IMG/VR virus record: IMGVR_UViG_3300049845_000291
Span: 1-64,000 of that record
Length of the DNA stretch: 64,000 nt
DNA from: a virus
Direction: 5' to 3' (one strand)
The position numbers and the translations under genes are program-made. The notes under the pieces are model-generated. The model made no database searches. It was not told the DNA's origin and saw only the letters and a program-made list of their open reading frames with translations. Below, in pieces: positions 5,356 through 46,795 of the stretch (positions within the stretch are counted from its first letter, which is position 1; every line of letters starts with the position of its first letter).

Positions 5356-5736
5356 ATGGCAACAAGACTTCCAACCTACCGTGGCTTCAGCACCGCGAAC
5401 TTCCTTCGTACTGGATCGTTCTTGAACACGAACGTGGACACGGTCAAGCAGGACCTGCTGAACCACATCTACACCGTGCCAGGAGAACGCGTTCATATGC
5501 CAGACTTCGGCACACGCATTCCACTTCTGGCGTTTGAGCCGATGGACGAGACCACGGTGACGATCATTCGGGAGGACCTGCAGAAGGTCTTCGCGTACGA
5601 TCCACGTGTGCAGCTCATTGACATGGCGATCACCCCTATTCCTGACAACAACTTCATCGCGGTCTTTGTTGACCTGCTGTACGTGGAGTTCAACATCAAG
5701 GAAACACTGAAGCTCGAGTTCGGAGTTGGTTCGTGA
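5356..5736 (+). CDS. 25: Baseplate wedge subunit, gp25-like
   Basis: 126 aa from ATG 5356 (GGAAGG upstream); two bases separate it from the gp5-like stop. The compact gp25/gpW-type wedge fold is indicated by 'VKQDLLNHIYTVPGERVHMPDFGTRIP' (pattern: helix, then PGER, then PDFGT) near residues 32-55, and by 'VTIIREDLQKVFAYDPRV' further on. In T4, gp25 joins gp6 and gp53 in the inner wedge, and the length matches the family (about 130 aa). The stop overlaps the next start (GTGA). High confidence. Confidence 0.88.
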   Translation: MATRLPTYRGFSTANFLRTGSFLNTNVDTVKQDLLNHIYTVPGERVHMPDFGTRIPLLAFEPMDETTVTIIREDLQKVFAYDPRVQLIDMAITPIPDNNFIAVFVDLLYVEFNIKETLKLEFGVGS

Positions 5737-6155
5737 AGCTGAGAGAACTGCTTATGGAAGAGAAAATCCTCAAGACGCCGGACGGCGAGCTATGGTACGG
5801 CTGGCGCAAGGACCTGGAGGAAGAAGAGGAAGAGGGGTACATCCCTGACGGGTACAGCAAGCGTGTGCTCGAGCTGAGTCTCCTCAAGGTCAAGAAACCT
5901 GGGCAGGGCTTTGGTGATGAGCTCATGAAGGCATTCCTTGACACGCCGGAAGCCAAGAAAGCTGAGCTGATCTTTCTTGACCCAAACCCAGGCATTGGGG
6001 TGAACTTCAAGAGCAAGCAGAGTGAGGAAGAACAGGTCGCTCGGCTGGTCAAGTTCTACCAACGGTACGGTTTTCGTCACAATCCTAGGTCGGCCACAAA
6101 GCGCATGTGGTTGGTCAGAAAGGGTTCAATCCCGGATCACGAGCTCCCAACGTGA
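5733..6155 (+). CDS. GNAT-type acetyltransferase in the baseplate operon, possible packaged protein
   Basis: 140 aa, GTG start in a GTGA overlap with gene 25. Residues ~55-70 'KKPGQGFGDELMKAFLD' fit the GNAT acetyl-CoA loop (Q/R-x-x-G-x-G/A) followed by its helix, and 'LVKFYQRYGFRHNP' (~107-120) is the GNAT motif B end (FY---GF). A run of glutamates sits at residues 29-34. The substrate is unknown. The N-terminus MKLRELLMEE resembles the short targeting peptides of T4 internal head proteins, and six other genes in the window start alike. It is the last gene before the antisense endonuclease gene, whose end overlaps it by 19 bases. Confidence 0.65.
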   Translation: MKLRELLMEEKILKTPDGELWYGWRKDLEEEEEEGYIPDGYSKRVLELSLLKVKKPGQGFGDELMKAFLDTPEAKKAELIFLDPNPGIGVNFKSKQSEEEQVARLVKFYQRYGFRHNPRSATKRMWLVRKGSIPDHELPT

Positions 6156-7831
6156 TCAAGTAAGAAGGCGTAGTGTCCAGCGCCAAAGATCCGAAACCAC
6201 CCGTTCGCTTCCATGTTCTGAACCTCTGTAAGCTCAGGATCGAATTTCTCCAAAAGATTAGGCAACTTGTGTTTTTGGCAGGCAAGGCGATTGACACGCT
6301 TCATCTCTTTTGGGTGCACGTAAAAGTAGTCTACTGGTGTGAGATGTGTTTCAACAAATCCATTGGTGCTGTACACATTACCAATTCCAAGTCGGGCGTC
6401 TGCATATGTGATGATAGAGCCAACTGGCCTTCTCTTGAGAAGCTTGCTGAAGGCGCCCACAACGGCCATATCTCGCCGTGAGCAGAACCTGATAAGTTCC
6501 CAATCAGCGTGTTTAGAAAATCGCGGGCGCCCAAAGGTCATCAGTGCCAGTAATTTGTCTCCGTCATACAGACCGATTCGGATTGAAGCGCGGTCCGGGC
6601 CTTGGAGATGGTTCGCCAACAGAAATGATGATGCCTCTTTAGGAGGCACGTCCCCGACAGTAAGTTTTCTGGCGTAAACGCGTTGGCACAGTCCAAGATT
6701 TGATCTAATGATACTATGCACCAGTTCATGGTTCTGCACGTACTCATCCTCAAAAATCTGGATGAGCTTTATCCCAGCCTCCCGAGCCGCTAGATGCTTC
6801 TTTTGGTGGTACTGATTGTCTCCCAATCTCTTGGTGCTGTGCCAATAGATTCCATGGAACTCTACTGCCAGCCGGTGTTCTGGGAAATAGAAGTCTAGCT
6901 CATACCCCTGCAGCACTTTTCTGTTCCGCGTTTCGTACTTCACGCCAAGACCGTCAAGAAACGCTGAGATTTGAAGCTCAGGCCGAGACTGGCGGGCAGG
7001 TCTGCATTTCCTACAACCAAGCCAAATGCTAGATAGGGTTGTCGAGAAAACCCTATCATGCTCCACACAGCGCCACTTTAGAACGTCAGCCTTTTGCGCA
7101 TCAAGTGCCGCATCACAGGCTTCAAATCCTGATTGCTTGGCCCTCTTCAGCAGGAGCTTTCTGGTGGTGATCGCTCTTCGTTGCTGAACTCCTGGAATCT
7201 TTGATGGGTGATCAACCCCATATTTTGTTAGCAGATGCTTTTGCCGAACTTTGGAGCTCAACGGGTGTTCCCCAAACCTCTCCAAGACAGTATTCCTGAC
7301 TTTCGTTTTGACAGCTTCAACTTGGCTTACGTTAACAACACCGTACCGAGAAGCCACAGTGTTTTTGACACGGTCTTTGATCTCGCTAGATTTTCCCTTG
7401 CACCTCAGAGAGCACCAGCCGGCCTTATAGCCGATAGCGAACGACAAAAAGGTTTTCAGGGCGGCACCGCACTCTTTGCACCTCTCAGGATAATCATACA
7501 GGTCGTGGTAGTACCAGTACAGCAGTTCATCGTTTGGAAGTGCTGGCCTGCTCTCCTGCATCACCTGAAGCCACTTCGGGCTCATGAACGTCCAGCTCGT
7601 GATCTGATCGTCTCGCACAAGCAGCGCCATGATCTGCTCTTTCGAAGGCGATTCGAAAAACAGCCTGTCACTCTTACGGTACTGACCTCTAGATGAGGTT
7701 AAAACACCTAGGGCTCTGAGCTTGCGGATGGTGTTCAACTTCAGCCCAGACAAGCTCACGAGTTCTGACAGCCCACCCTCCAGTGGATCATCTTGCTGAC
7801 TAAATACCTGAACTTCAGGTCTCGGGTTCAT
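6137..7831 (-). CDS. Homing endonuclease, Vsr-like EDxHD type, inserted antisense between genes 25 and 6
   Basis: 564 aa if started at ATG 7831, whose CAT abuts the ATG of gene 6 (CATATG); an upstream in-frame ATG (7894) lies well inside gene 6. Order: helix-turn-helix-like N-terminus; a zinc-knuckle pair (CKEC...CSLRC, about 115-140); two repeats of a 'sRYGV-n-sq---k-k' DNA-binding type; a second Cys pair (CRKC); a nuclease core with 'RPELQISAFLDGLG', 'LDFYFPEHRLAVEFHG', 'YWHS' and 'LIQIFEDEY' (roughly 280-370), matching the very-short-patch-repair-like EDxHD homing endonucleases such as I-Bth0305I; and a C-terminal 'YADARLGIGNVY' domain. The DNA is visibly more AT-rich than both flanks, a sign of transfer. 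It is convergent with the GNAT gene. Confidence 0.8.
   Translation of the reverse strand: MNPRPEVQVFSQQDDPLEGGLSELVSLSGLKLNTIRKLRALGVLTSSRGQYRKSDRLFFESPSKEQIMALLVRDDQITSWTFMSPKWLQVMQESRPALPNDELLYWYYHDLYDYPERCKECGAALKTFLSFAIGYKAGWCSLRCKGKSSEIKDRVKNTVASRYGVVNVSQVEAVKTKVRNTVLERFGEHPLSSKVRQKHLLTKYGVDHPSKIPGVQQRRAITTRKLLLKRAKQSGFEACDAALDAQKADVLKWRCVEHDRVFSTTLSSIWLGCRKCRPARQSRPELQISAFLDGLGVKYETRNRKVLQGYELDFYFPEHRLAVEFHGIYWHSTKRLGDNQYHQKKHLAAREAGIKLIQIFEDEYVQNHELVHSIIRSNLGLCQRVYARKLTVGDVPPKEASSFLLANHLQGPDRASIRIGLYDGDKLLALMTFGRPRFSKHADWELIRFCSRRDMAVVGAFSKLLKRRPVGSIITYADARLGIGNVYSTNGFVETHLTPVDYFYVHPKEMKRVNRLACQKHKLPNLLEKFDPELTEVQNMEANGWFRIFGAGHYAFLLDHVGSS
7801..7806 (+). promoter_or_regulatory. Late promoter TAAATA for gene 6
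   Basis: GAC-TAAATA-CCTG, 25 nt before ATG 7832. It lies inside the 5' part of the antisense endonuclease gene. It matches the T4 late box (TATAAATA) in its core and the other boxes in this window. Confidence 0.65.
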
Positions 7832-10800
7832 ATGGCTTTCCGGAACACAAACAGCGCAGAATCGTGGGATAAGATCTACGAGGCATTCACTCAAGTGAAC
7901 TTTACCTCGTTTGACTTTGACACGATCAAGGCTTCGCTGGTCGATTACCTACGTATTTACTACTCTGAGATATTTAACGATCTCATCCAATCATCAGAGT
8001 TGATTGCGTTGCTTGAGATGTTCGCGTACGTCGCCGAGCAGCTCGCGTACCGCGTGGACATGGTGTCGCATGAGAACTTCATCACGACCGCTCAGCGCAA
8101 GCAGAGCATCCTGCGGCTGGCGAAGCTGATCTCGTACAAGGCCACGCGGAACATCCCAGTTCGCGGGCTGGTAAAGATCACAAGTATCAGCACGACTGAG
8201 CAGATCATTGACAGCCGCGGTGTTGACATCTCTGGGCTTGTCATCAACTGGAATGATCCAAACAACCCGAACTGGAAAGAGCAGTTCCTGCTGATCATGA
8301 ACCGCGTCCTGAGCACGCAGTTCGGTCAGCCGCAGAAGTCCTTCCAGGTCGGTGACGTGCTGATGGACCTGTACTCCGTGAACGCGGCAGAGGGTTCGTT
8401 CACGAACGGGGTGTTCCCATACACGGCCACCACCGGTCTCGATAGCTTCCCAATGGAGATCGTGCCGGCTGACATCGACGAGAACGGCCCGTTCGAGCGT
8501 GAGCCTGATCTGTCAGCGGCCATGTCGATCGTGTACTCCAACGACGGCATTGGTGATGGCTCAGACTACACTGGGTTCTTGGCGTACACCAAGCAAGGCA
8601 CCCTAGCCCGTATCGACTACAACATCAGCGAACGGCTGCCGAACCGCCGACTGGAGTTCCTGCCAGACAACGTGAATCACACCGACGTTTGGGTGCAGAA
8701 GCTTGCAGGTGACGGCACAATCAGTGAGCGTTGGAAGCAAGTTGAGACCATCAGCGAGCAGAATCTGATCTTCAACGAGGACCGCAGCACGCGAAAGAAG
8801 TACGAGGTCGACACCCTTGAGAACGACCAGATCGCGGTGGTGTTCGGGGATGGTGACTTCGCTGAGGCCCCAGTCGGCCTGTACCGGTTCTGGATGCGGC
8901 AGTCCGCGAACCAGGCGATCGTGATCGCCAAGAACAAGGTCGTGAACGCACCGCTGACGTTCACGTACATCTCGAGCACCGGCAACACCGAGACGTGCTC
9001 GATGACCTTCAGCCTGACGACCACGCTGCAGAACGGCGCGGCGTCCGAGACCATTGAGCACGTTCGACAGGCAGCCCCTGCCACGTACTACGCCCAGAAC
9101 CGCATGGTGAACGGGCAGGACTACAACACGTACATGCTCAAGGATCCTTCGATCCTTCGGTTGAAGACCGTGAACCGCACCTTTGCAGGGCAGCCAAAGT
9201 ACATTGACTGGAATGACGCGTCAGGGTCATACGAGAACGTCAAGCTCTTCGGTGATGACCTGGCGATGCGGTACGACCTGTCACTGAACTCACTGAGCAC
9301 CTCGCTGTCTGGTCAGGCACTGATCGACCGCGTGATTGAGCCGCTGCTCTCAGACAGCGGTGTGGTCACAGCCATGGTGCACGTGTCGGCAACGCACCCA
9401 CCAACCAAGGACGTGGTGTCGTCTCCTCGTCGCACGTTCATTGAGGACAACCGAGCGAACCTGTTCAACAGCACGAACGGCACCGCGGTCTCACTGATCT
9501 CTGGCTCGACACCAGATGGCTCGCTCAAGGAAAAGACTGCCATGCAGGCGCTCATCGACCGGCACTGGTACGGTGAGCCCATCGAGTTCGTGGAAGCTCC
9601 AGGCAACCAGGTCTGGGCGCGCATTCCAGACCCAAGCCTGTTCCCGAAGGATGACTCGCGGATCTACGCGGCAAACGTACCTCGCACGATCGACGGCGTG
9701 AACCGCTTCCCACCAGGCGACATTGGTTCGGGACTGCAGCCCATCGCCGAGCAGGATTACTTCGCGCTGCGGTACAACCGCACGATGGCCGGCATCGGGA
9801 ACGGCTCGATCACGTTCAGCTTGCCGTCAGCATATAAGCGCGCTGGCGAGGTCTGGACCATTGAGGTCGCCGCGAACGGCACAACGCTGTACGTGCGCTC
9901 AAACCTACGTGGCACGTTCCCGAGTGGCACGGTTGGGGAGCCATACGAGATCACACCGCCAGATCAGGTGTCGCCGGCGCCGTTCTTCACGGTGACGCAG
10001 GGCAGCACGCCGTTCGAGCCAGGTGACGCGTTCATCATCCAGACAGGTGTGGCTCCGGGGTTGACGCTGACGCAGCGCACGAACGCATCAGGCTCTGGTT
10101 GGACGTACTTCAACAGCGCCGGTGTCATCAACCTGAACGGCTGGTGGCAGATTCTTGGCACCCCTGAGCTTGGTGCCGAGTACGCCAACGGACCAGTCAG
10201 CACCGCGCCGTACTACCACGACCAAGCGTTCGCCATGAACGGCCCGCTCAAGAACTCGTGGCTGATCTTGGTTCGCAAGATCAAGCCGGCGGGGGTGGTC
10301 ATTGGGTACGAGGTCTACTACCGCGACCTGAAGCTGACGGTGGAGTCACCAACTACCAAGTTTTGGTTCAACGAGGTTGATCAGATCCTTGACAACGAGA
10401 CCAAGAAAAGGGTGTACGACAACATCAAGATCCTGCGCTCGAACAACGACTACACAGGTGTGCAGCTCAAGAGCACGCAGCTCTATGATGTGGTCGGCCC
10501 AATCAAGAACGAGCTCGGGGAGATTGACTTCAACCAGCTGCAGGTGGTGCCAACTGACCTGCTGCAGGAGGACGAGAGCGGCAACCTTGAACCAGATCGT
10601 CTGCTGCAGTTCGTGACGTTTGCCGGGTTTGATGAGCTTGACAGCTTCGAGTACTTCCGTCTTGACAACCCAAGTGCTGCCCTGACACCTGGTGAGCTCT
10701 CGGCAGCGGTAGCGGCCTTTGGAACACTGAACGATGACAGCGCCTTTGCCGTCCAGGCTGGCGGCATCTGGTACGGCCGCAAGCAGGTTGCCAAAAACCA

Positions 10801-11434
10801 ATCAGACCCTGAAGCCAAGGGCCTGGACTTCATGTGGCAGCACTTTGCGCCTTACACCAACATCATCGATCCTTCGGTGACGAACATCCATGATGCGTAC
10901 GTGATCACACAAGGGTACTATGATTCGGTGGTCGCGTACCTACGCGGGCTGTCCAGCACCGCACCGACCCCGCCAACGCCGCTCGACCTGCGGAACTCTT
11001 ACTCGTACCTGCTCAAGAACAAGATGCTCAGCGACACTGTGGTGCTGCATCCAGGTCGCATGCGCTTGCTCTTCGGTTCACTGGCTGAACCTCAGCTTCG
11101 CGCAAAGTTCAAGGTTGTGCGTGCTCCTCAAGGCACCCTAACCAATGAGCGCGTCAAGGAAGAGCTGTTGAACGTGATCAACACGTACTTCGACATCCGG
11201 AACTGGGACTTCGGTGAGACGTTCTACGCCACCGAGCTGATCGCCTTGATGCACCAACGCCTGCCAACTGAGATTGCCTCGGTGGTCCTGGTACCGCTGT
11301 ACAGCGCGAACTCGTTCGGTGATCTGTTCACGGTCGAAAGCGGTTTCGATGAGATCCTGCAATCAGCCGCGCAGCTCAGCGACATTGAGGTCGTCGAGGC
11401 GCTTACTCCAACTACCATCCGACAGGTACGCTAA
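7832..11434 (+). CDS. 6: Baseplate wedge subunit, gp6-like, enlarged
   Basis: 1200 aa from ATG 7832, 25 nt after a TAAATA late box; T4 gp6 is 660 aa. The first ~110 residues ('SFDFDTIKASLVDYLR', 'LIALLEMFAYVAEQLAYRVDM', 'ILRLAKLISY') are the helical start of the gp6/baseplate-J family, and the last ~130 ('GRMRLLFGSLAEPQLRAKF', 'IRNWDFGETFYATELIALM') its C-terminal dimerisation region. The extra length lies in the middle: about residues 650-760 hold a beta module ending 'QGSTPFEPGDAFIIQTG' that recurs in the two giant proteins downstream. The role is heterodimer formation with gp7-type protein and gp53/gp25 in the wedge. The start codon has only a weak ribosome-binding site. High confidence for family, moderate for start. 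Confidence 0.85.
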   Translation: MAFRNTNSAESWDKIYEAFTQVNFTSFDFDTIKASLVDYLRIYYSEIFNDLIQSSELIALLEMFAYVAEQLAYRVDMVSHENFITTAQRKQSILRLAKLISYKATRNIPVRGLVKITSISTTEQIIDSRGVDISGLVINWNDPNNPNWKEQFLLIMNRVLSTQFGQPQKSFQVGDVLMDLYSVNAAEGSFTNGVFPYTATTGLDSFPMEIVPADIDENGPFEREPDLSAAMSIVYSNDGIGDGSDYTGFLAYTKQGTLARIDYNISERLPNRRLEFLPDNVNHTDVWVQKLAGDGTISERWKQVETISEQNLIFNEDRSTRKKYEVDTLENDQIAVVFGDGDFAEAPVGLYRFWMRQSANQAIVIAKNKVVNAPLTFTYISSTGNTETCSMTFSLTTTLQNGAASETIEHVRQAAPATYYAQNRMVNGQDYNTYMLKDPSILRLKTVNRTFAGQPKYIDWNDASGSYENVKLFGDDLAMRYDLSLNSLSTSLSGQALIDRVIEPLLSDSGVVTAMVHVSATHPPTKDVVSSPRRTFIEDNRANLFNSTNGTAVSLISGSTPDGSLKEKTAMQALIDRHWYGEPIEFVEAPGNQVWARIPDPSLFPKDDSRIYAANVPRTIDGVNRFPPGDIGSGLQPIAEQDYFALRYNRTMAGIGNGSITFSLPSAYKRAGEVWTIEVAANGTTLYVRSNLRGTFPSGTVGEPYEITPPDQVSPAPFFTVTQGSTPFEPGDAFIIQTGVAPGLTLTQRTNASGSGWTYFNSAGVINLNGWWQILGTPELGAEYANGPVSTAPYYHDQAFAMNGPLKNSWLILVRKIKPAGVVIGYEVYYRDLKLTVESPTTKFWFNEVDQILDNETKKRVYDNIKILRSNNDYTGVQLKSTQLYDVVGPIKNELGEIDFNQLQVVPTDLLQEDESGNLEPDRLLQFVTFAGFDELDSFEYFRLDNPSAALTPGELSAAVAAFGTLNDDSAFAVQAGGIWYGRKQVAKNQSDPEAKGLDFMWQHFAPYTNIIDPSVTNIHDAYVITQGYYDSVVAYLRGLSSTAPTPPTPLDLRNSYSYLLKNKMLSDTVVLHPGRMRLLFGSLAEPQLRAKFKVVRAPQGTLTNERVKEELLNVINTYFDIRNWDFGETFYATELIALMHQRLPTEIASVVLVPLYSANSFGDLFTVESGFDEILQSAAQLSDIEVVEALTPTTIRQVR

Positions 11435-11676
11435 TGAAGCTTCAAGAAATTACCTTAAAGAACGATTTTCCAAAGAAGGACGTCACCATTGAGAACGTCT
11501 TGGACACGCTTCCAGCGTCCCCAGGTGACATTTTCTGGAAGCTTGGGCGTGTTGAGGACTATCAAGATCGAGCCAAAAGCGCGGCGTTGCGAGGCATGCT
11601 AGACAAGCTCGTTGCTGAAAAGAAGGTGCGCGCAAAGCACCGCACCGCAGACGATCCAGTGTACTATAAGGTCTGA
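11434..11676 (+). CDS. Small protein with packaging-like N-terminus, possible winged helix
   Basis: 80 aa, ATG overlapping the gp6 stop (TAATG). I do not recognise the family. After MKLQEITLKNDF, the segment 'PGDIFWKLGRVEDYQDRAKSAALRGMLDKLVAEKKVRAKH' reads as helix-helix-turn-wing and would fit a small winged-helix fold (a DNA-binding suggestion only). It is charged, with no membrane segment. Its first residues match the MKL-x-E-(L/I) start shared with the next two genes, which in T4 internal proteins acts as a head-targeting peptide. It is followed ten bases later by another gene of the same kind. Confidence 0.6.
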   Translation: MKLQEITLKNDFPKKDVTIENVLDTLPASPGDIFWKLGRVEDYQDRAKSAALRGMLDKLVAEKKVRAKHRTADDPVYYKV

Positions 11677-11686: not shown

Positions 11687-12067
11687 ATGAAACTCAATGA
11701 ACTCAAGCTTGGGCACGTTGTTGGTGACGTCATCGGGGTGGCAAAAGCCGGCAAGAAGCTTGTTGGCAAAGAAGACCCAAAGGAACAGAGCAAGCTCAAG
11801 AAGTCAATTGCACTCGGCGAAGGCCTGGGCGATCTGCACGCGAAGTTCCAAGGTTGGCTCGACCAAAACAAGCTCCCAGGTGACGAGCTCCAGCGGCTGT
11901 TGAAGGACCTAGAGGTTGAGGCTAAGAGCCGCGGATCGCTTCACACCATGATCGATGACCTGATGAGCCCCCTGACCGTGAAGCAGCTCAAGACCCTGAT
12001 GAAGATCGGCCCCGCTGACCTGAAGCTGGCTGCCAAGGAAGAGTACGCGCACCGGAACCAATCATGA
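11687..12067 (+). CDS. Small basic helical protein with packaging-like N-terminus
   Basis: 126 aa from ATG 11687, inside a longer frame whose upstream part overlaps the preceding gene. Begins MKLNELKLGHV, then a Gly/Ala/Lys stretch 'VIGVAKAGKKLVG', and then mostly predicted helix with many Lys/Glu. No family recognised and no membrane segment. Coupled to the next gene by ATGA (12064). The position in the late operon and the N-terminus make an internal head protein a reasonable guess; nothing in the sequence gives a catalytic role. Confidence 0.6.
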   Translation: MKLNELKLGHVVGDVIGVAKAGKKLVGKEDPKEQSKLKKSIALGEGLGDLHAKFQGWLDQNKLPGDELQRLLKDLEVEAKSRGSLHTMIDDLMSPLTVKQLKTLMKIGPADLKLAAKEEYAHRNQS

Positions 12068-12969
12068 TCCTGCAAGAGATCTTCGACAGCACGTACGAGT
12101 ACGAGGTCAAGCTTGATCATCGTGGTATCTACCTGGTCGAGTTCCGAGATAAGGACGGGCGGTACATTGAGGTTGAGTTCTCAAAATCCAAAGATCAAGA
12201 CATCTGGCTGATTGAGTTCACCCGCGATGGTTCCGTTGTCGCGACTGGTGAAGGCGATGCGCCAAAAATCCTGAGCACCGTAGCGGCCATTACTCAAGAA
12301 TTCATCGACAAGAAAACACCTGCGTTCCTGGTATTCTCGGCTTCAAAGCACGACCGAGCTCGCGCTAGCGTGTACCGTCGCATGATCATGCGCAAGGTGC
12401 TGCCGTATTACGTTGAGCTCAAGTACCCGCAGTACCGTTTCAAAGTCCCCTTTGGAGAGACCTTCGACGAGCTCTGGCGCTTGTACCGTCGGTCTGGAGG
12501 TGAGGACACGACCTTCATGGTGATTGCTCACCAGGATGAGCTTAAGGAAGCGCTCATGACCGAGGTGTTTGATGCCAAGGTCGAGTACGAGGTCACACGC
12601 CAAACCGCCAAGCACTTCCAGACCAAGGCTGAGATCGGAGGTCGAACGATTGTGTTCACCGCGCTGCTCGATGATGGACCGAACGGTGCGTACTGGGACG
12701 TGGCGTTCGAGGAGTACGATGGTCATCTTGGGACCTTCAAGGCCACCGGCAAAGGCAAGGCCTTCGAGGTCCTGTCCATGGTCAAGGCCAGCCTGACCGA
12801 GCTCAGGGACAGGTACCAGCCCGAGATCGTGTACTTCACCGCCGACTCGACCAACGGCGCCGCGCGGGCCAACATCTACCGTCGGATGGTTGGCGACGTC
12901 TTCAACGGCTACGAGCTCGAGGAGACGAAGTCGGAAGGTGATCACGTCTTCATCTTCCGCCGTCCATAG
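12064..12969 (+). CDS. Tandem-duplicated protein with Alt-like N-terminus (candidate internal head protein)
   Basis: 301 aa, ATGA-coupled to the previous gene. Starts MILQEIFDSTYE, close in pattern to T4 Alt (MELITELFDED), a packaged enzyme. The body is two copies of one unit, about residues 12-115 and 173-300. Each runs: strand-rich start ('YEV...'), a 'IEFTRDGSVVATGEGDAPKIL' or 'VAFEEYDGHLGTFKATGKG' strand-turn, a helix, a 'FLVFSAS' or 'IVYFTADS' strand, and the signature 'RARASVYRRMI' or 'RANIYRRMV'. The family looks like ones I have seen in other T4-like genomes without function. It is the last gene of the baseplate transcript, followed by a hairpin. Function unknown. Confidence 0.68.
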   Translation: MILQEIFDSTYEYEVKLDHRGIYLVEFRDKDGRYIEVEFSKSKDQDIWLIEFTRDGSVVATGEGDAPKILSTVAAITQEFIDKKTPAFLVFSASKHDRARASVYRRMIMRKVLPYYVELKYPQYRFKVPFGETFDELWRLYRRSGGEDTTFMVIAHQDELKEALMTEVFDAKVEYEVTRQTAKHFQTKAEIGGRTIVFTALLDDGPNGAYWDVAFEEYDGHLGTFKATGKGKAFEVLSMVKASLTELRDRYQPEIVYFTADSTNGAARANIYRRMVGDVFNGYELEETKSEGDHVFIFRRP

Positions 12970-35460: not shown

Positions 35461-35862
35461 ATGTTCAGCACGAAACTTGTTGCGATCGCGGCAGCGGCCG
35501 TTTTGATTCCAACCCTGGCCTTTTCTGGCTGGACATACATCAAGCTCAAGAACGCTGAGGCTGACAAAGCTGAAGCGATCTCTCAGCGTGATGCGATGGC
35601 AACACAGCTTGATCTGGCGGTGCAGGCTAACCAAACCAGCCAGGCCACGATCGATCAGCTCAAGGCCGAGAAGCAAGACATTGAGGCCGCGCTGGCCAGC
35701 CTTGAGGCCCTACGTCGGAGGGACCGCGCCACCATCGCCGGTCTGTCTAAGGCCATCACTGAACAAGCCAACAACCCTGAAAACCAGGTCAAGCTTAGTC
35801 CCGTGCTGCAGCAGATCGTTGATCAGATCCAGCAACAGCGTAGCTCTCGAGGTGTCAAATGA
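35461..35862 (+). CDS. Inner-membrane spanin (Rz-like)
   Basis: 133 aa. Residues 5-27 ('LVAIAAAAVLIPTLAFSGW') are a single N-terminal membrane anchor; residues ~28-105 form a long charged coiled coil rich in Glu, Lys and Gln, and the tail is Gln-rich. This is the layout of i-spanins, which sit in the inner membrane with the coil in the periplasm and fuse inner and outer membranes at the last step of lysis of Gram-negative hosts. The gene overlaps the lipoprotein gene by ATGA, the usual i-/o-spanin arrangement. Sequence alone does not give the family. Confidence 0.78.
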   Translation: MFSTKLVAIAAAAVLIPTLAFSGWTYIKLKNAEADKAEAISQRDAMATQLDLAVQANQTSQATIDQLKAEKQDIEAALASLEALRRRDRATIAGLSKAITEQANNPENQVKLSPVLQQIVDQIQQQRSSRGVK

Positions 35863-36182
35863 GAAGCTTACTACTCATCCCCGTTCTGTTGGCCCTTGTC
35901 GGCTGCGAGACGTTCGTGAAGCGTGAAACGGTCGTTGAGACGCGGTACGTGGTGCGCACCGCCGTCGAGGACCAGAAGCGACTGCCACCGTACCCACCAC
36001 CCATTGACGTCAAGACCGCCTCTCAGCTGGAGCTTGCACAGTGGATCCTAGCCAGTGAAGAGCGCCAATGGCGGCTCGAGGCGATCATCGCCGAGCTCAT
36101 CAAGTTCTATGAGAAGCCGGTGACGAAGGAAGAGCAAGACAAGGTCAAGGACGAAAAGAAAGATCCTCCTAAGGAGAACTGA
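35859..36182 (+). CDS. Outer-membrane spanin lipoprotein (Rz1-like)
   Basis: 107 aa. A lipoprotein signal peptide 'MRSLLLIPVLLALVGC' has its lipobox Cys at residue 16, followed by a Pro-rich stretch ('RLPPYPPPID', about 47-56) as in Rz1 proteins and a charged C-terminus ending in Lys/Glu/Asp. It starts four bases inside the i-spanin gene and is not embedded in it. Together the pair would span the periplasm. The C-terminal extension is longer than in lambda Rz1. The stop overlaps the lysin start (TGATG). Confidence 0.78.
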   Translation: MRSLLLIPVLLALVGCETFVKRETVVETRYVVRTAVEDQKRLPPYPPPIDVKTASQLELAQWILASEERQWRLEAIIAELIKFYEKPVTKEEQDKVKDEKKDPPKEN

Positions 36183-37813
36183 TGGGAACATGCTGCCCAC
36201 CAGCACCAACACCTGAGACCATTGGCGCCGCCGGTGCCGAGGCAGGAGGACCAGAGAGCGACATCAGGCCAGGTGAGAGCGTTGAGTGCTACATGGCTCG
36301 AGGTGGCAACACCTCCGGGTTGCATGACGACGCCACCTCAAACGTGCTGAACAAGATTGAGAACTCGTCGATTCCAATCAGCCAAAATCCGGTGCGCTTT
36401 GACGGCATCCAGTTCACCTTGACAGATGGCAGCACCAGGATTCCAACGTCATGGGGTTGGGTGAACGATGGAGGGGAGCCACTGGCGACTTTGGGTGGAG
36501 TCACTCTATCCAGCACCGGTGTGTTGTCTGGTAACATCCCACCGGCAGCTTTCAACAAGACCTTCAAGGTCGCTGTCACAGCATCTGACGCAACAGGTGT
36601 GATTGACCGACGAGGCTTCACCTTCTCTCCTGGCGAGGCAGGTGATGATGATCTTCGGTTGATCTCACCGCTGCCGGGAGCCACCGTGAACTCGCTGTTT
36701 GGTCCGCGGCTGCACCCAATCCAGAAAGTGATGAAGCCGCACACGGGCATTGACATGCGGTACGATGACCGCTCCGTCAAGGACGTGGTGGCGGCAGCTG
36801 ACGGCACCGTCACGCTGACTGGTGGCAACCGAAGCACTGGGTACGGTTTACGTGTCTGGATCAAGCACACCACAAAGTCTGGCAAGGACCTGGCCACCAC
36901 CACGTACAACCACCTTGAGAAGATCTACGTCAAAAACGGACAGAAGGTCATGGCTGGGCAGTCCATTGGTCTTGAAGGCAGCACAGGTGCCAGCACCGGA
37001 CCGCACCTGCACTTCGAGTGCCGGCTACCTGATGGCAAGTTCATTGACCCGTTGCCGCTGATTCGTGGGCAGATCTTGGTGGCAAGAAGCACCGGATCTC
37101 GCGGTGAAGCGCAGAACGTATCGGCACGTTCTTCCAATGCATCGCTGTCTGCGGCTGAAGTGGCGGCAAGATCTTCAAGCTGTGCCCCGTTTGGTCCGAC
37201 CTATCCTCCAGCCGATCCACCAGAAACCAACGACACCCCTCCAACACCAACTGCCACAGAGCCGTTTGAGCTGGCTTGGTTCTTCACCATGTCCCATGAG
37301 GTCGGGCCTTTCTGGAGCAACACGTTGGCTGGCACACCTGATGTTGTTGCTGGACTGATTGAGACAGCTATTCAGCGCCGGAACGTTGGGTACGTGAACA
37401 CGCCGAACTTTCCTGGCGGTGAAACCAAGTTCGGCGTGGCGCAAAAACCAAATCCAAGCGTCGCCGTCAGGTCGATTGACTACGCGGCGGCGAAGAAGCT
37501 TGGGTTCAACAATTACTGGAAGAGCGCCCCGATCAGTTGCGTTGGCAAGGGATCGTACATCGCGGTCTTGCTGTTCGACCTAAATTATCTGCATGGTGGC
37601 GGCAACGCCAGAACAATCTGGCAGAATGCCATCGACGCTGGCATGAACGCCAGCGTGTCATCGAGAGACGATCAGCTGATTGCATGCGAGATCCTGACGG
37701 ACGCTCGTGTGCAGTTCATTGAAGATATAACCCAACCTGCGTACCAGCGGGGTTGGCTGCGACGAGCTAACGAGACGTTGGCGTACGTGCGCTCATTACC
37801 ACCTGGACTGTGA
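36182..37813 (+). CDS. Two-domain cell-wall lysin: M23 endopeptidase plus GH108-type muramidase
   Basis: 543 aa. Residues ~60-150 look Ig-like ('IQFTLTDGSTRIPTSWGW'). Residues ~160-290 are an M23 zinc endopeptidase with 'HTGIDM' (His and Asp ligands, ~187-192) and 'GPHLHFE' (~273-279). Residues ~360-540 resemble glycoside hydrolase 108 with its peptidoglycan-binding tail: 'MSHEVGPFWSN' carries the probable catalytic Glu, 'FPGGETKFGVAQ' matches the GGxTxxGI motif, and 'QRGWLRRANETL' closes the binding domain. No signal peptide is seen. Next to the spanins it could be the endolysin, but tail genes follow and the spike lacks a lysozyme, so a tail-borne lysin is equally possible. No holin is recognisable beside it. 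Confidence 0.82.
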   Translation: MGTCCPPAPTPETIGAAGAEAGGPESDIRPGESVECYMARGGNTSGLHDDATSNVLNKIENSSIPISQNPVRFDGIQFTLTDGSTRIPTSWGWVNDGGEPLATLGGVTLSSTGVLSGNIPPAAFNKTFKVAVTASDATGVIDRRGFTFSPGEAGDDDLRLISPLPGATVNSLFGPRLHPIQKVMKPHTGIDMRYDDRSVKDVVAAADGTVTLTGGNRSTGYGLRVWIKHTTKSGKDLATTTYNHLEKIYVKNGQKVMAGQSIGLEGSTGASTGPHLHFECRLPDGKFIDPLPLIRGQILVARSTGSRGEAQNVSARSSNASLSAAEVAARSSSCAPFGPTYPPADPPETNDTPPTPTATEPFELAWFFTMSHEVGPFWSNTLAGTPDVVAGLIETAIQRRNVGYVNTPNFPGGETKFGVAQKPNPSVAVRSIDYAAAKKLGFNNYWKSAPISCVGKGSYIAVLLFDLNYLHGGGNARTIWQNAIDAGMNASVSSRDDQLIACEILTDARVQFIEDITQPAYQRGWLRRANETLAYVRSLPPGL

Positions 37814-39651: not shown

Positions 39652-40260
39652 CTAAAGCTCTTTGCCTGGCGTGTTGTTTCGACCGTCGGCGCTCACGAAG
39701 ATCTTCTCTACCGCGCCCCGAATCAGACCACCAGCCTGCGCAAACAGGCCCTGCTTGAGCTCGTCGATGAGCTCCTTGTTCTTGTACAGGTCGCTGGAGC
39801 GCATGCCGCCGGTTAGCTTCAGGTGCACAGGAATCGGATCATCACCGAGCACGCGCTTGATCATGCGCATCCGGCCGCGGCCTTCATGGCCGGTGACCTT
39901 TGGCAGGCTCTCACCCTTCTGATCGAACCGAATGTCGAGGAACGGAATGCCAACAGCGTACCCTTGCTTGACGACGAGCTCTTCGAGCTCGTACGACGTC
40001 GGTTCCTGGTGGCCCTCATCGTCGAGGGCCAGCTTCAGGAACGTGCTCGGTTTCATGAGCGCCACAGCACCCTCGTGCCAGATGTTACCGTTCAACGGCA
40101 CGGATCCTAGGCCCTTACGGGCCGAGAAGGTGATGGGGCCGATCTGGTACTCGAACTCGGCCACGGCTGGAGACCAGGCTGGAGCGTTCTCGAACTTCTC
40201 CGCGTAGATCTTGCGTGGCTCGTTCTCGGCCAGAAAGGATTTGAAGGTGATGTGCCGCAT
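39652..40260 (-). CDS. Unrecognised protein with packaging-like N-terminus
   Basis: 202 aa from ATG 40260, which overlaps the previous stop (TGATG); a TTG directly before it is an alternative. Begins MRHITFKSFLAENE, close in pattern to T4 internal protein leaders (MKTYQEFIAE), with a possible L-x-E cut at LAE. Near residue 122 'VTGHEGRGRMRMIKRVLGDD' recalls the '-GHEGRHR-' motif of ParB-like phage proteins. The second half is helical and Gly/Asp/Lys-rich. The last - strand gene before the convergent terminator. Function unknown. Confidence 0.58.
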   Translation of the reverse strand: MRHITFKSFLAENEPRKIYAEKFENAPAWSPAVAEFEYQIGPITFSARKGLGSVPLNGNIWHEGAVALMKPSTFLKLALDDEGHQEPTSYELEELVVKQGYAVGIPFLDIRFDQKGESLPKVTGHEGRGRMRMIKRVLGDDPIPVHLKLTGGMRSSDLYKNKELIDELKQGLFAQAGGLIRGAVEKIFVSADGRNNTPGKEL

Positions 40261-40705: not shown

Positions 40706-40706
40706 C

Positions 40707-41015
40707 TTAGGCTCCTTCGGAGTTCAGAACTTCCATGATGTCGGGAATCTGCTCGCTGAGCTCGAACAGACCTTGCGGCAGCTCGGTCACAGGCGTGACC
40801 TGCTCTCCTTGGACGCGGAACCGATGGAGCTCGGTGCTCAGGCGGCGGGAGGGCAGCTCGACGACGTACGTGATGTAGAACTGGTGCTTGGCCGCATCGT
40901 ACCACAGTCCGTCGACGTGGCCGTCCAGCGCCACGAGCGGTGAGGTGCCGATGAACTTGCCGACCTGACGCACCGCGTCTTCGGCATCGATCAGCAGCTC
41001 CTTGAGTTGCCCCAT
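40707..41015 (-). CDS. Unrecognised small acidic protein upstream of the LexA-like gene
   Basis: 102 aa from ATG 41015 (GGAGAG eight bases upstream); a longer frame to 41099 runs through the promoter and is rejected. 'MGQLKELLIDAEDAVRQVGKFIG' starts a helix. Strands follow ('FYITYVVELPSRRLSTELHRFRV'), and the end 'GLFELSEQIPDIMEVLNSEGA' is acidic. First gene of the transcript that includes the LexA-like repressor. No known family. Confidence 0.6.
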   Translation of the reverse strand: MGQLKELLIDAEDAVRQVGKFIGTSPLVALDGHVDGLWYDAAKHQFYITYVVELPSRRLSTELHRFRVQGEQVTPVTELPQGLFELSEQIPDIMEVLNSEGA

Positions 41016-41041
41016 TGTGCTCTCCGTGACTAGGATGAATG

Positions 41042-41083
41042 GAATTCTATCCAGTCTAGAGGACAGAGTGTAACGCGTTACAC
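41042..41083 (-). promoter_or_regulatory. Promoter with overlapping 16-bp palindrome
   Basis: On the - strand, TTACAC, 18 bases and TAGAAT precede ATG 41015 by about 30 bases. The -35 region is the right half of a perfect palindrome GTGTAACGCGTTACAC (41068-41083), which also contains the stop of the upstream gene. Placement suits an operator. Confidence 0.55.
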
Positions 41084-42299: not shown

Positions 42300-42300
42300 G

Positions 42301-42882: not shown

Positions 42883-42902
42883 TGCTGCTCCTTTTTGAGG
42901 AC

Positions 42903-42908
42903 TATTTA
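42903..42908 (-). promoter_or_regulatory. Late promoter TAAATA for the 193-aa gene
   Basis: GTCTAAATAGTCC on the - strand, 20 nt before ATG 42882; its TAA is also the stop codon of the nuclease gene. The same flanks (CTAAATAGTCC) occur in the promoter at 53252. Confidence 0.75.
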
Positions 42909-43643
42909 GACCTTTTGAAGCACCTGTGCCCAGAACCGCGCGGCGCGCTCTCGCAGCTCGGAGAACTTGCTTTCGACGTCTACAATGAACTCCAGTGGGA
43001 AGCCCTTTGCCGCAGCCATCAAGATAACACCCTGTTTGATGTCAGTTCCGAACCGCTCATTGTGTGCCATCGCATAGAACGCAAGCTGGATCTCATAATC
43101 CGCAACATCGTCGCGGTTCTTGATCCGAGCGGCGGTCTTGAAGTCAATGATCGATGGGACGCCCTTGTATTCCCCAGCACAATCAAATCGACCCGCCACT
43201 TGAACCTGGTCAGAGTACAGCGCCTTCTCTTGACCCCAGATCTCGTTGATCAGGTTCAGCTTGAGCTTCAAGGAATTGAAGGCGTTTCGATCGTCCTGAG
43301 GAATGCTCTGACCATCAACCGGTGCAAAGACCTCCTGATCTTTCAGGTACCGTTCGACCAGCGTGTGCACCATCGTGCCATGCTGGGTTGCTTCAAGGCT
43401 TTTTTGCGCGGCGCTTTTTTCGCCTAAGGATTTTCTCCACTGCTCGAGCGAACGCTTTTTCTCCGGCGCTTCGGTTATTCCCAAGACGGTGGTGATCGAT
43501 GGCAGCGCGCCAATTGGTGTGCTGTACCACCGCATTCCAAGCTCATTCGTGGTCTCGTACTCGACGTACGGAAATGGGCGGTGAACTCGTTGAGCTGTAC
43601 TTGACGGGGCAACCTTGTCCTTCAGCCAGTTCTTGGGGGTCAT
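42906..43643 (-). CDS. PD-(D/E)XK nuclease, RecB/MGME1-like
   Basis: 245 aa, ATGA overlap with the previous gene. The nuclease core is readable: 'THGTMVHTLVERYL' pattern near residue 85-100 (as 'QHGTMVH'), 'VAGRFDCAG' (~147-155, Asp), 'SIIDFKTA' (~161-168, the D-x-K pair) and 'YEIQLAFYAMAH' (~183-194, the Q-x-x-x-Y helix). This is the RecB/Cas4/MGME1 branch of the superfamily and probably trims DNA ends. Neighbours include a ligase-fold protein and small basic proteins. T4-like phages without gp46/47 at hand often have such a gene; its late context is unusual. Confidence 0.78.
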   Translation of the reverse strand: MTPKNWLKDKVAPSSTAQRVHRPFPYVEYETTNELGMRWYSTPIGALPSITTVLGITEAPEKKRSLEQWRKSLGEKSAAQKSLEATQHGTMVHTLVERYLKDQEVFAPVDGQSIPQDDRNAFNSLKLKLNLINEIWGQEKALYSDQVQVAGRFDCAGEYKGVPSIIDFKTAARIKNRDDVADYEIQLAFYAMAHNERFGTDIKQGVILMAAAKGFPLEFIVDVESKFSELRERAARFWAQVLQKV

Positions 43644-44194
43644 GTGTGATTCAAGCGCCGCAACCGCATTGAAGCTGACTTACGTCGAGTCAACTTTGAC
43701 TTCATCGCTCGGATGAACTTCTTTCTAGTTGCTGCAATTCGGAGCTTGTTCCTCGTCTTGGCTGGAATAGGCGGCTTGAATGCGGTCTTTGGGTTAACTA
43801 CGACCCGACCTTTGCGGCGCCCGCTGGTTACGCGGAATCCACGCTTGATCTTGTTGCCGACTCTCCTGAAAGCTGGTCTGATGCCCTCTTGCAGATCGTC
43901 ATCAAGTTCAGAGAACGCTTCTACAGGAAGGACTATACCATGTGGGAACCTGTCGTCATTCTCTTTCTTAAGGATGACATCATTGTCATCGAGGGTTGCT
44001 GTGAACAGATCACCATGAACGTCTTTGAACTGCCCACTGCCCGAATTGAGAGCGGCCAAGAAGTCGTCGACCTTTGATCGGTCGAGCTTCATCACAAAGT
44101 CGTCGGCGCTGAGCAGCAGGCCACCCGCGAGCTCAGCAACGTTCCAGCCGTCGACAGTCTTCGGCTTAGCTGTCGAAGTGCTCGTCGTGTTCAC
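43640..44194 (-). CDS. Protein with highly basic C-terminus, probable nucleic-acid binder
   Basis: 184 aa from a GTG at 44194; ATG 44092 is an alternative, and neither has a good ribosome-binding site. The N-terminal ~100 residues are acidic ('VDDFLAALNSGSGQFKDVHG'). From ~105 on it is strongly basic: 'RVTSGRRKGRVVVNPKTAFK', then 'KTRNKLRIAATRKKFIRAMK' and 'RKSASMRLRRLN'. This tail resembles short basic modules I have seen in other large-phage proteins. It probably binds DNA or RNA. Overlaps the previous gene by 29 bases and the nuclease gene by four. Confidence 0.55.
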   Translation of the reverse strand: MNTTSTSTAKPKTVDGWNVAELAGGLLLSADDFVMKLDRSKVDDFLAALNSGSGQFKDVHGDLFTATLDDNDVILKKENDDRFPHGIVLPVEAFSELDDDLQEGIRPAFRRVGNKIKRGFRVTSGRRKGRVVVNPKTAFKPPIPAKTRNKLRIAATRKKFIRAMKSKLTRRKSASMRLRRLNHT

Positions 44195-44555
44195 GATACC
44201 AGACTTTCGTGAGACCGTTCAGGAACGACAAGATGTCCTTGCTCGTATCACCGATGCTGCCACAATAGATGTCATTCTTCTGACCTTGGACAACCGCCAT
44301 CCACTCATTCGTCCAGGTGAAGCGAACAACATCGCCTTTTTTGGTCCGAACGTCAAGATGGTTCTTGCGGCGCTCGCTCGTAACTGACTCGATCGCCTTG
44401 TTTGCGCGAAGCTCATCTGCTGTCTTCGCAATGCGATCTTTCATCTGCCGCTGAGCAATGTACTCTCGATCGGACTGTTCAACGTCAGCAGCGCGAGCTG
44501 CCTTGGACATGCCCTGCCCAAGAACGCGCGCCTCAGATAGCTCGCTGAACTTCAT
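44166..44555 (-). CDS. Small charged protein with packaging-like N-terminus
   Basis: 129 aa, TGATG overlap with the DAEG-repeat gene. Starts MKFSELSEARVLGQGMS; 'LSEA' fits an L-x-E cut, and the start matches the group of MKL/MKF-x-E-L proteins in the window. Residues ~20-60 are helical and charged; ~65-95 are strands ('NHLDVRTKKGDVVRFTW', 'MAVVQGQKNDIYCG'). No family recognised. Position within the ligase/nuclease cluster suggests a packaged accessory protein. Confidence 0.6.
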   Translation of the reverse strand: MKFSELSEARVLGQGMSKAARAADVEQSDREYIAQRQMKDRIAKTADELRANKAIESVTSERRKNHLDVRTKKGDVVRFTWTNEWMAVVQGQKNDIYCGSIGDTSKDILSFLNGLTKVWYREHDEHFDS

Positions 44556-46795
44556 CAGTTCCTCCAGCCCTTTGGGCGACCGCCAGTTTTGAGCTTGGTG
44601 GTCCTCAGCATGTTTGCGTACTCCAAGGCAGCCTTGTAGCCTTCCTTCGAGTTCTCAAAGTACCTGGAATGCAGCGCCCCGTCGAATGGACCGTCAATGC
44701 CGACACGCAAGGTCTTCATCCCCGTAGCATCAGGATCAACACCAAGTGCGAGAACTGTCTCCTCGTGCGTATCATCACCGACGTGTGTGGCCATCATGGC
44801 TGGGCCGGCCGCCGGCTCAAACATGTTCAGGTACTTCAGGTCGCTATCTGTGAGCGCTGAAAGCTCGCTGAAGGCCTCATTCAGGTTCTCGTTCTTTTGG
44901 CCTGGTTGAACGCGGGTGAAGGTACGATTTGGCTCGTTTTCCTCATTCAGGGCGGTCAGCAGATTCTTCATCTTCTGCATCACCAGTGCCTTGTTCTTGA
45001 GCGACTGGCGCTTTTCACGAAGGGACTTGATCAGATTGGCTTCTTGGAAATCCAGGTGCTTGGCTGGAATACCAAGGGCAACAAAGATAGCCTCAACCAT
45101 GTTGAGGTACGGATCTGCACCAACGTTCAGGTCACCATCACCTTCAGCCAGCGGCTTACCAGCGCGCTGAAGTCCGGCCATGATTGGCTCGTTCACGTCA
45201 TCAGTCTTGATGCCCATGCGTTGCGCCAGCACGATCATCGCACGGCGTAGCTCGTCATTCGTGCCGATGAGCTTGGCGGCACGCAGCAGAGCCGGAGCAG
45301 CCGGGCCTGGACCTTCAGTGCTGACGACTTCGGCTGGAAGCCCGAGCTTGATCAGGATGGTCTCGAACATCTTCTGGATCGCCGCACCGCGCTTTGGCAC
45401 CGCACGCTCGGCCTCAAGGGCGTACCCCTTGACGGTGGCCATCATGTTGTAGAACTTGTTGAAGGCTGTCAGGACTGACCTCTCCTTGCGAAGCATGTCG
45501 CCGGCCGCTTGAACAGCTTCCTTGACGCCATCAACGTTCACGAAACGGCCAGGGATACCAGTCATCGCGTAGAACGCGACAAGCTTCTTGTCAATGGCAC
45601 GTGGCAGCTGAGCAACCAGCGCCATGTACTGCTTGTCCATCGGGATAGCCATGCCATCCTTCACCGAGTCGCGGTCAACAACCGGAGCTTTTGCTTCCAG
45701 CACGCGCGACAGAAAGTTTGCACCAATTGTCATGTCAACTCCTTGAACACGGAACTTGATCTCGTCCGTTGATTTCTGTTCAGCCATCAGTTCAGCAGCT
45801 TGTCGGCTTGCGAACATTCCCGGCATGTATCCCAGTGCGCGACCTTCGGCAATCGCCTCAAGCACGAACTCACCTTCACCTGATTTAGCAAGCTTGGCGA
45901 GCTGGCTAAGGCCTTCTTCCGTTTGGACAGGCTCCTTCTTCTTTTTCTTCTTGATCACGTTCCCATTCTCGTCTTTCTTGGGATTTCCGTCATCATCGAG
46001 TTCGACCTCTTCGTCTTCCTCACCAGCATCGCCTTCAGCATCGCCTTCAGCATCGCCTTCAGCATCGCCTTCAGCATCGCCTTCAGCATCGCCTTCAGCA
46101 TCGCCTTCAGCATCGCCTTCAGCATCGCCTTCAGCATCGCCTTCAGCATCGCCTTCAGCATCATGACTCGAACCATTTGGGGGCGCTTCATCAGCACCTG
46201 CGGCCAAATCGTTCTCGACCTCACCAGCTGTCGGCTCATCGGCTGAAGTTGTAGGTTGATCCGAAGTATCCTCTGGAGCAGGCTCGTCATCTGCAGCCAG
46301 GGCTGGTTCTGATTCCTCGTCACCAAAGAGCTCGTCAAAGTCGCTGTCGATGGTCAGATCGTCTTCAGATCCCTCTGGGTCGCTTGGCCAAACAACGTCG
46401 ACGATCTCGAACTTCTGCGCAAGAGTCGCGATGGCTTCTTCTGGGTCACCTTCAATACCCAGTAGTTTCGACATTTCAGCTTCGAACTCGTCAGCCTGGT
46501 CAGCACGCACATACACCTTGATGATGTCACCTTCAGGATCGGCAGGATCTTGCAGACCGAAAAGAATGGTGTCAACCTCATCGTTGATCTCAGCTGCACG
46601 CTCAAGATAGTTGTTGATGTCAGATCCTGACAGCTTGCCGTCAGAGTTCAAGACGTTGCGCATCATCGAGAATTGCACATCAACAGGCTTCGCGGAAACG
46701 TCACCACTACCCGCGTTAGAACCATCTGAGCTCTTGAGGTCAGCTTGGAAATTGCCTTTTGACGAGATACCCGCCAGCTCTTGAATCAACTTCAT
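44555..46795 (-). CDS. 746-aa late protein with eleven DAEG repeats
   Basis: ATGA overlap with the ligase-fold gene. Starts MKLIQELAGISSKG. Residues ~40-125 ('NNYLERAAEINDEVDTILFG', 'IIKVYVRADQADEFEAEMSK', 'KFEIVDVVWPSD') form a conserved-looking domain that I have seen in large T4-like phage virion proteins. Residues ~130-285 are disordered and acidic: DAEG repeated eleven times (~212-255), then 'GEEDEEVELDDDGNPKKDENG' type sequence and six Lys in a row. The remaining ~460 residues are helical. The shape suggests a core/scaffold or internal head protein made to be cut. Function not established. Confidence 0.65.
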   Translation of the reverse strand: MKLIQELAGISSKGNFQADLKSSDGSNAGSGDVSAKPVDVQFSMMRNVLNSDGKLSGSDINNYLERAAEINDEVDTILFGLQDPADPEGDIIKVYVRADQADEFEAEMSKLLGIEGDPEEAIATLAQKFEIVDVVWPSDPEGSEDDLTIDSDFDELFGDEESEPALAADDEPAPEDTSDQPTTSADEPTAGEVENDLAAGADEAPPNGSSHDAEGDAEGDAEGDAEGDAEGDAEGDAEGDAEGDAEGDAEGDAEGDAGEEDEEVELDDDGNPKKDENGNVIKKKKKKEPVQTEEGLSQLAKLAKSGEGEFVLEAIAEGRALGYMPGMFASRQAAELMAEQKSTDEIKFRVQGVDMTIGANFLSRVLEAKAPVVDRDSVKDGMAIPMDKQYMALVAQLPRAIDKKLVAFYAMTGIPGRFVNVDGVKEAVQAAGDMLRKERSVLTAFNKFYNMMATVKGYALEAERAVPKRGAAIQKMFETILIKLGLPAEVVSTEGPGPAAPALLRAAKLIGTNDELRRAMIVLAQRMGIKTDDVNEPIMAGLQRAGKPLAEGDGDLNVGADPYLNMVEAIFVALGIPAKHLDFQEANLIKSLREKRQSLKNKALVMQKMKNLLTALNEENEPNRTFTRVQPGQKNENLNEAFSELSALTDSDLKYLNMFEPAAGPAMMATHVGDDTHEETVLALGVDPDATGMKTLRVGIDGPFDGALHSRYFENSKEGYKAALEYANMLRTTKLKTGGRPKGWRN
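46033..46152 (-). repeat. Ten perfect copies of a 12-bp tandem repeat coding DAEG
   Basis: The 12-base unit CTTCAGCATCGC (+ strand) is repeated ten times without a change, with one degenerate unit on each side. It codes (D-A-E-G)n on the - strand. Lack of any silent change points to recent slippage or conversion. Confidence 0.95.

Follow-up and report, generated by a model that had tools for sequence, protein, structure and literature searches.

Bacteriophage T4 packages only a few proteins through its capsid-targeting sequence, and for the numerous head proteins of jumbo phages no general signal is known to us. We analysed a stretch of 64,000 nucleotides (the window), namely bases 1-64000 within the 152,208-base IMG/VR record IMGVR_UViG_3300049845_000291, where an earlier note had pointed out a shared N-terminal peptide resembling the T4 sequences on seven unrelated proteins, named below by the coordinate at which each starts. 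All seven open frames and their N-termini are present as that note described them, and Pfam, PHROGs and BLAST bear out the unrelatedness of the bodies. The peptide is real, and its spread is wider than had been noted; it is however not one motif but two, MKLxEL in six of the seven and FKxFLxE in the protein at 40260, which is the nearest of the seven to the T4 internal-protein signal. We consider it likely that these peptides are capsid-targeting sequences of a diverged and much expanded T4-type system.

In T4, loading into the core of the prohead needs no more than the first ten residues of the internal protein IPIII; targeting depends most on residues 4 and 7 and processing on residues 8 and 10, while an Asp at the cut-site position stops trimming but not targeting (PMC9026906). 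The T4 internal proteins are a diverse set which has only the tag as a common feature and which counters host restriction (PMC3012670). The comparison with T4 drawn in the earlier note was accurate, as the T4 genome gives MKTYQEFIAE (65416, 65834) and MELITELFDED (123454). Like the T4 sequences (those of IPI-III and Alt, with gp21), the peptides described here are short, sit at the N-terminus of unrelated proteins and have an L-x-E site; moreover the relatives of this phage have a gp21-type protease and Gp23, the FKxFLxE form is nearly the same sequence, and the predicted cargo comprises ADP-ribosyltransferases, to which class Alt belongs. They differ from T4 in that the main consensus, MKLxELFE, is shorter and shifted, in that enzymes of many classes carry it, in that packaging is here a prediction, and in the number of candidates, 20-40 per genome where T4 has a handful. 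With respect to T4, the novelty would thus lie in the divergence of the tag, in the presence of a second tag equivalent to it, and in a far larger cargo set.

In phage P1, an N-terminal signal also loads counter-defence proteins (DarB) into the head, but this signal is 10-30 residues long, without a consensus among Dar proteins and without a family of small tags (PMC9024508). In phiKZ and SPN3US, a Glu-specific prohead protease trims many head proteins, whose propeptides are however mostly longer than 100 residues (PMC5694885). A search of the phiKZ genome gave no Peptidase_S77 match and no strict tag. Head propeptides of the phiKZ type were rejected as a description of the present system, as the tags are 8-12 residues long and the relatives match PF03420 well. 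The polyvalent proteins injected by phages (Iyer et al., as cited in PMC7824862) have, as far as the citing article describes them, an overlapping repertoire of ADP-ribosyltransferase (ART) and GNAT domains aimed at the host; they appear there as large multidomain polypeptides, whereas we see mostly single-domain proteins, each tagged. The open-access literature on the "capsid targeting sequence", in the portions available to us, treats T4, P1 and SPN3US, an absence from it being no proof that a system is unpublished, and a comparative survey of jumbo phages does not use the term "capsid targeting".

The window has a T4-like tail module (a gp25-like gene at 5356 and a gp6-like gene at 7832-11434), and its B-family DNA polymerase is nearest to those of the jumbo phages XacN1 and CM1, with about 34% identity. 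Judged by such homologies, the 152-kb contig represents part of the genome of a T4-like jumbo phage akin to XacN1 and CM1. Profile searches gave no match to Peptidase_S77 (PF03420) or Gp23 in the whole contig, hence the head genes lie outside this fragment. When viral contigs were scanned with the gp6 protein, 75 of them had related proteins, several of these contigs being 290-345 kb long, and we called the genes of three large relatives: G005 (342 kb), G001 (235 kb) and G006 (336 kb). Around gp6 in relatives, many neighboring genes start with MKLQELMDRE, MKLNELLNSC, MKLIELFEAK, MKLLELFNKT, MKLTQLLEGK and the like.

The same genomes which have this type of tag (hereafter the KL type) have a second one, [T/S]FKxFLxE, close to MKTYQEFIAE and MKTFKEFIKE of T4. 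Among orthologous bodies, one type can stand in place of the other, and it is for this reason that the KL tag may be regarded as equivalent to the T4-type tag. Seven orthologs of the 5733 acetyltransferase, with 53-64% identity, respectively start with MKLIDLVLLE, MRLNELKLLTE, MKLLEICRG, MKVHELLNLHEE, MNLMELWNVHNLHEE, MKLNELKLPEG (followed in this case by about 80 extra residues) and MITFKQFLAE. This exchange, on one of the very seven proteins of the earlier note, is in our opinion the best individual reason to think that the KL tag would do the job of the T4-type one. The orthologs of an amidoligase start with MITFKQFLSE, MISFKQFLAE, MITFKEYLLE, MITFRQYLEE, MISFKQYLQE or MITFKNFLAE in six genomes, with MKLDVLFE or MKLVKLQE in two, and with a shortened MKLSEA in one. 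On the KL profile, the scores of the T4 tags are negative, and the direct similarity of the KL form to the T4 internal-protein tags is low.

We counted tags against a control in which each column of the N-terminal alignment is shuffled among genes, thereby keeping the bias for Lys at position 2 (1000 shuffles). In the 152-kb contig, the loose pattern MKLxEL is found in 6 of 160 predicted N-termini while 1.9 are expected, and 7 shuffles in 1000 reach 6; a profile trained on three other genomes finds 5 strong N-termini against 0.9 (the maximum in 300 shuffles being 4). Taken alone, the contig thus displays a modest excess, which is suggestive rather than conclusive. The excess in the three relatives is decisive: for G005, G001 and G006 respectively, the loose pattern is found 32, 24 and 23 times against shuffled means of 7.5, 3.8 and 5.1, and the strict pattern MKLxE[LI][FLHA]E is found 14, 4 and 8 times against 0.10, 0.04 and 0.03, counts never reached in 1000 shuffles. 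Judging from the shuffles, chance would account for about one in eight KL-type candidates in these relatives. The consensus in relatives, M-K-[LIV]-x-[EQ]-[LI]-[FL]-E-[A], is found on dozens of proteins per genome, and in an alignment of the candidates the consensus MKLxELxE is confined to the N-terminus. The 101 candidate tagged proteins of four genomes fall into 74 body clusters.

A pattern applied directly to DNA, and hence independent of the gene caller (MK[hydrophobic]x[EQ][hydrophobic][LF]E), gave 43 matches in 15 of 36 records, with none for the reversed control; 31 of the 43 fall in 13 records which had not been used in defining the motif. It gave no match in T4, phiKZ, RaK2, PA5oct or CM1. 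With column shuffling, RaK2 and T4 have no excess of KL-type tags, which means that the tag belongs to this clade and not to all phages with gp21; in phiKZ, the loose pattern slightly exceeds its shuffled expectation (6 against 2.3). When all IMG/VR contigs were scanned for MKLxELFEA, 77 scattered single matches turned up, a number plausibly due to chance in a collection of this size and therefore uninformative.

The position of the putative cut site was studied on N-termini collected by a pattern ending at position 6, so that position 8 was not selected for. Of 79 tagged N-termini, 38 (48%) have Glu at position 8, against 55 of 1099 others (5%; p 2e-24), and the neighboring positions have no comparable excess of Glu. 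The residue which follows this Glu is Ala in 14 of the 38 cases and one of A, S, G or T in 25. By analogy, an L6-x-E8 locked in position and followed by a small residue would reflect the cleavage logic of T4 gp21. Among 17 records of relatives, Peptidase_S77 is found in 14, with good matches to PF03420, and Gp23 in 13. The capsid proteins of relatives have a conserved start of about 35-45 residues, ending with LxE-T-A just before a conserved FQKI.IPMIRR (HLLETAG, YLTETAG, HLMETAP and HLVETAA, one protein having MxE). The comparison with the capsid-protein cut site which the earlier note had proposed can thus be made in the relatives, where the same L-x-E stands at the processing position, but not in this contig, which lacks the head region.

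As a separate observation, the Gp23 profile also found small proteins of 64-88 residues in G005 (230120-230386) and G006 (235040-235234), with ELVSVQPM or ELCSVQPM where the mature capsid protein has ELVGVQPM. We had considered such short extra Gp23 matches as fusions to the capsid propeptide; the two which were resolved (G005 230120 and G006 235040) share ELxxVQPM with the mature capsid and not with the cleaved part, and the idea was rejected.

The mechanism we propose is the following. An N-terminal tag of 8-12 residues, of the MKLxELFE or TFKxFLAE type, would anchor a protein, whatever its body, to the core of the prohead during assembly; once the capsid has closed, a gp21-type protease would in many cases cut the tag off after L-x-E; the protein would then be packaged along with the DNA filling the head, and would be injected at infection ahead of the transcription of any phage gene. 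In its full form the proposal is evenly balanced between right and wrong: a large clade of environmental jumbo phages would load some 20-40 proteins per head by one short, exchangeable tag removed by a protease, among them an AcrVA5-like acetyltransferase, gp0.7-type kinases, ADP-ribosyltransferases and possibly the anti-CBASS protein Acb1 (CBASS: cyclic-oligonucleotide-based antiphage signaling system), that is, a takeover and counter-defence kit injected before phage gene expression and readable from N-termini alone. If this is true, the N-terminal sequence predicts the injected proteome of such phages, it singles out dozens of proteins of host takeover and counter-defence that lack annotation, and a new short tag is available for loading proteins into phage heads.

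The predicted cargo comprises the AcrVA5-like GNAT protein, T7 gp0.7-like kinases and ADP-ribosyltransferases. All 11 genes for gp0.7-type kinases (PHROG 15752) found in relatives have a tag-like N-terminus, 10 of them in the standard register, two of these 10 requiring a later in-frame start. Two genes encode ART-PolyVal ADP-ribosyltransferases, one with a KL tag and the other with an FKQYIEE tag; amidoligases, a DnaJ protein and an AAA protein are the other recognisable domains among tagged proteins. By analogy, these classes match what T4-like phages inject, the ADP-ribosyltransferases as T4 Alt and the whole as agents of host takeover. In some genomes the Acb1 proteins start with MKLFELK, MKLYELK or MLLNELK, and in others they lack a peptide of this kind; as these peptides have no L-x-E, Acb1 is a possible cargo at most. 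One can also notice that Acb1 genes are common in these jumbo phages (L279-L289), and that the T7 gp0.7-type kinases are recurrent in the clade (L256-L267), several of their tags extending as MKLxELxG[IV]KK[FY], a sub-type without L-x-E.

The capsid-targeting reading of the earlier note finds strong comparative support in the exchange of tags, the position-locked L-x-E, the protease and capsid site of relatives and the cargo classes; taken as a whole, it is supported in part. Several points weigh against it. We infer packaging, core binding, cleavage and injection of the tagged proteins from the analogy with T4, and we infer that this phage, whose head genes lie outside the contig, behaves like its relatives. 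The contig has no match to the strict DNA pattern, and in just three of the seven window members (5733, 40260 and 44555) does a suitably placed L-x-E follow the targeting part; the others may be targeted but uncut. Many tagged genes adjoin baseplate genes rather than head genes, and 46795 is a doubtful member. Two enzymes of the XacN1 virion, a lipase and a chitinase, have no tag, which shows that other routes into the virion exist. For PA5oct, a distant relative, mass spectrometry of virions detected 93 proteins according to the GenBank notes. On the profile built from other genomes, 7 of these 93 score at least 4, against 5 of 228 undetected proteins (p 0.03), a result which depends on the threshold (p from 0.03 to 0.20) and comes with overall score distributions which do not differ; a narrower pattern, chosen post hoc, gave 8 of 93 against 3 of 228 (p 0.003). 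This association is weakly supportive.

The N-terminus could instead be a signal of localisation or interaction in the infected cell, for instance by binding a phage or host protein, the tagged proteins remaining unpackaged. That packaging is predicted, and that some tags have no L-x-E (MKLxELK of Acb1, MKLxELxGIKKY of the kinases), would agree with such a signal, but it would not predict a position-locked L-x-E followed by a small residue, nor the exchange with FKQFLAE; we find this explanation unlikely. It is improbable, too, that the tag is an address to the tail, the baseplate or the outside of the particle instead of the head interior. Tagged genes do cluster round gp6 in the window and in relatives, many of them adjoining gp25 and gp6; yet others lie within the head cluster, between the protease, scaffold and capsid genes (G006 166149-167787 and G001 96468), or far from both baseplate and head genes, and L-x-E together with the exchange with the T4-type tag points to the prohead.

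Some tagged genes are true paralogs, such as a DUF6934 cluster of 11, and one may think of diverged paralogs whose N-terminus was best preserved. We hold such a shared ancestry to be very improbable, given the 74 body clusters, with folds as unlike as GNAT, kinase, ART, DnaJ and AAA, and given orthologs in which the tag varies while the body is conserved. Chance, added to the general preference of N-termini for MK and hydrophobic residues, could account for the small loose excess of the contig alone; the column shuffles, however, retain this preference without ever reaching the strict counts of the relatives, and the tag is conserved on the same proteins across relatives. For the clade, this explanation is contradicted and very doubtful, while it may hold for single members such as 46795. 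Finally, a nucleotide-level signal (a translation enhancer or a recombination site at gene starts) incidentally encoding MKLxEL was rejected, its probability being next to nil: the motif is always at the start codon, but the choice of synonymous codon varies at its Leu, Val, Ile and Glu positions, and the TFKQFLAE tag differs in nucleotide sequence.

With capsid targeting as the preferred reading, the features of the window are the following:

5733..5759, plus strand: N-terminal tag MKLRELLME with an L-M-E site, GTG start
5733..6155, plus strand: GNAT-fold acetyltransferase of 140 residues, predicted packaged cargo
11434..11463, plus strand: N-terminal tag MKLQEITLKN, profile score 7.8
11434..11676, plus strand: protein of 80 residues, predicted cargo (moderate), adjoining gp6, where relatives have clusters of tagged genes
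11687..11716, plus strand: N-terminal tag MKLNELKLGH, profile score 10.6
11687..12067, plus strand: protein of 126 residues, predicted cargo (moderate), in a gp6-adjoining position
12064..12093, plus strand: N-terminal tag MILQEIFDST with Asp at the position of the cut-site Glu, profile score 11.5
12064..12969, plus strand: duplicated-domain DUF6934/PHROG 16075 protein (Pfam 4e-9, PHROG 6e-11), predicted cargo (moderate)
39652..40260, minus strand: protein of 202 residues, predicted cargo (strong tag)
40225..40260, minus strand: N-terminal tag MRHITFKSFLAE of the T4 internal-protein type with an L-A-E site; homologs MITFKQFLFE (G006) and MQTFKQFLTE (L290)
44166..44555, minus strand: protein of 129 residues, predicted cargo (strong tag)
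44532..44555, minus strand: N-terminal tag MKFSELSE, then Ala, a complete L-x-E-A site, profile score 12.8
44555..46795, minus strand: protein of 746 residues, cargo status doubtful
46766..46795, minus strand: N-terminus MKLIQELAGI, the weakest of the seven, profile score 4.4
46792..49116, minus strand: RNA-ligase-like protein of 774 residues (weak Pfam RNA_ligase, E 0.006; KLDGANL), additional candidate cargo
49096..49116, minus strand: short leader MPVLLES (L-L-E, then Ser), additional candidate missing from the earlier note

On the sequence evidence we would grade 5733, 40260 and 44555 as strong members, 11687, 11434 and 12064 as moderate ones (all three grouped next to gp6, an arrangement also seen in relatives) and 46795 as weak. 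The orthologs of the 5733 protein align from residue 1 or start with their own version of the peptide. The AlphaFold2 model of this family (predicted local distance difference test, pLDDT, 85) has a confident body and low-confidence or disordered residues 1-7, the tag being probably flexible. Its best matches in PDB are GNAT enzymes, AcrVA5 first (E 1e-4, template-modelling score 0.79 by target length), while Pfam alone stays below threshold; according to the model, the product has a GNAT fold. As the identity with AcrVA5 is only about 15%, the fold is thereby supported, not the target. The inclusion of an acetyltransferase in the cargo set, already proposed in the earlier note, agrees with this fold and with the exchange of KL and T4-type tags, packaging being predicted.

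For 11434 we found no homologs of the body, and for 11687 no relative among the viral contigs scanned. DUF6934 proteins occur in relatives as tandem tagged paralogs, and in these as in 12064 an Asp or Asn often replaces the cut-site Glu. Since in T4 an Asp at this position blocks trimming alone (PMC9026906), the 12064 protein is perhaps targeted but not trimmed.

For 40260, one of the five AlphaFold2 models (pLDDT 71.5) has weak PDB matches to Osa and sulfiredoxin (E 0.02 and worse), and the body may possibly have a ParB/sulfiredoxin-like fold. Outside the window, at 131089-131982 of the contig (minus strand; L004:11089-11982), there is a protein of 297 residues starting with MITFKQFLLEGG, and its orthologs in G006 and G005 retain MITFKQFLLEGG and MRSFKQFLLQEGG; to judge from its letters, the start MITFKQFLLE is a further strong tag in the same phage. 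Inside the window, at 40707-41015 (minus strand), a protein of 102 residues starts with MGQLKELLIDAE, which is loosely tag-like, off register, and has a profile score of -10.7.

Collection-wide scans gave no relatives for the 44555 protein and for the 746-residue protein at 46795, and synteny and direct tblastn were used instead. By synteny, the G006 gene at the position equivalent to 44555 starts with MNLQELFEA. The homologs of 46795 start with MNLLKEFSKGD, MSLLKEFAVGD and MKLLKTINEFVGD, which means that MKLIQELAGI, counted as a tag in the earlier note, is mainly the N-terminus of its own family and not an exchangeable tag. The 49116 protein has homologs at 39-48% identity in three relatives, in which differing short leaders with x-x-E at their end (MRIISEG, MKIHRLLSES, MTILRRLNEG) precede one conserved ITHIEDL/IDHVDDL body; it is likely an eighth member.

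Two other loci of the window can be mentioned. Between the acetyltransferase and gp6, an open frame of 585 residues (6137-7894, minus strand) matches DUF7487, Vsr endonuclease and the Mom family, on which basis it may encode a mobile endonuclease, of the homing type, joined in one protein with a Mom-like GNAT domain. The genes at 35461-37813 encode an i-spanin-like protein of 133 residues, a lipoprotein of 107 residues and an M23 peptidase/GH108 enzyme of 543 residues, and likely form a lysis cassette.

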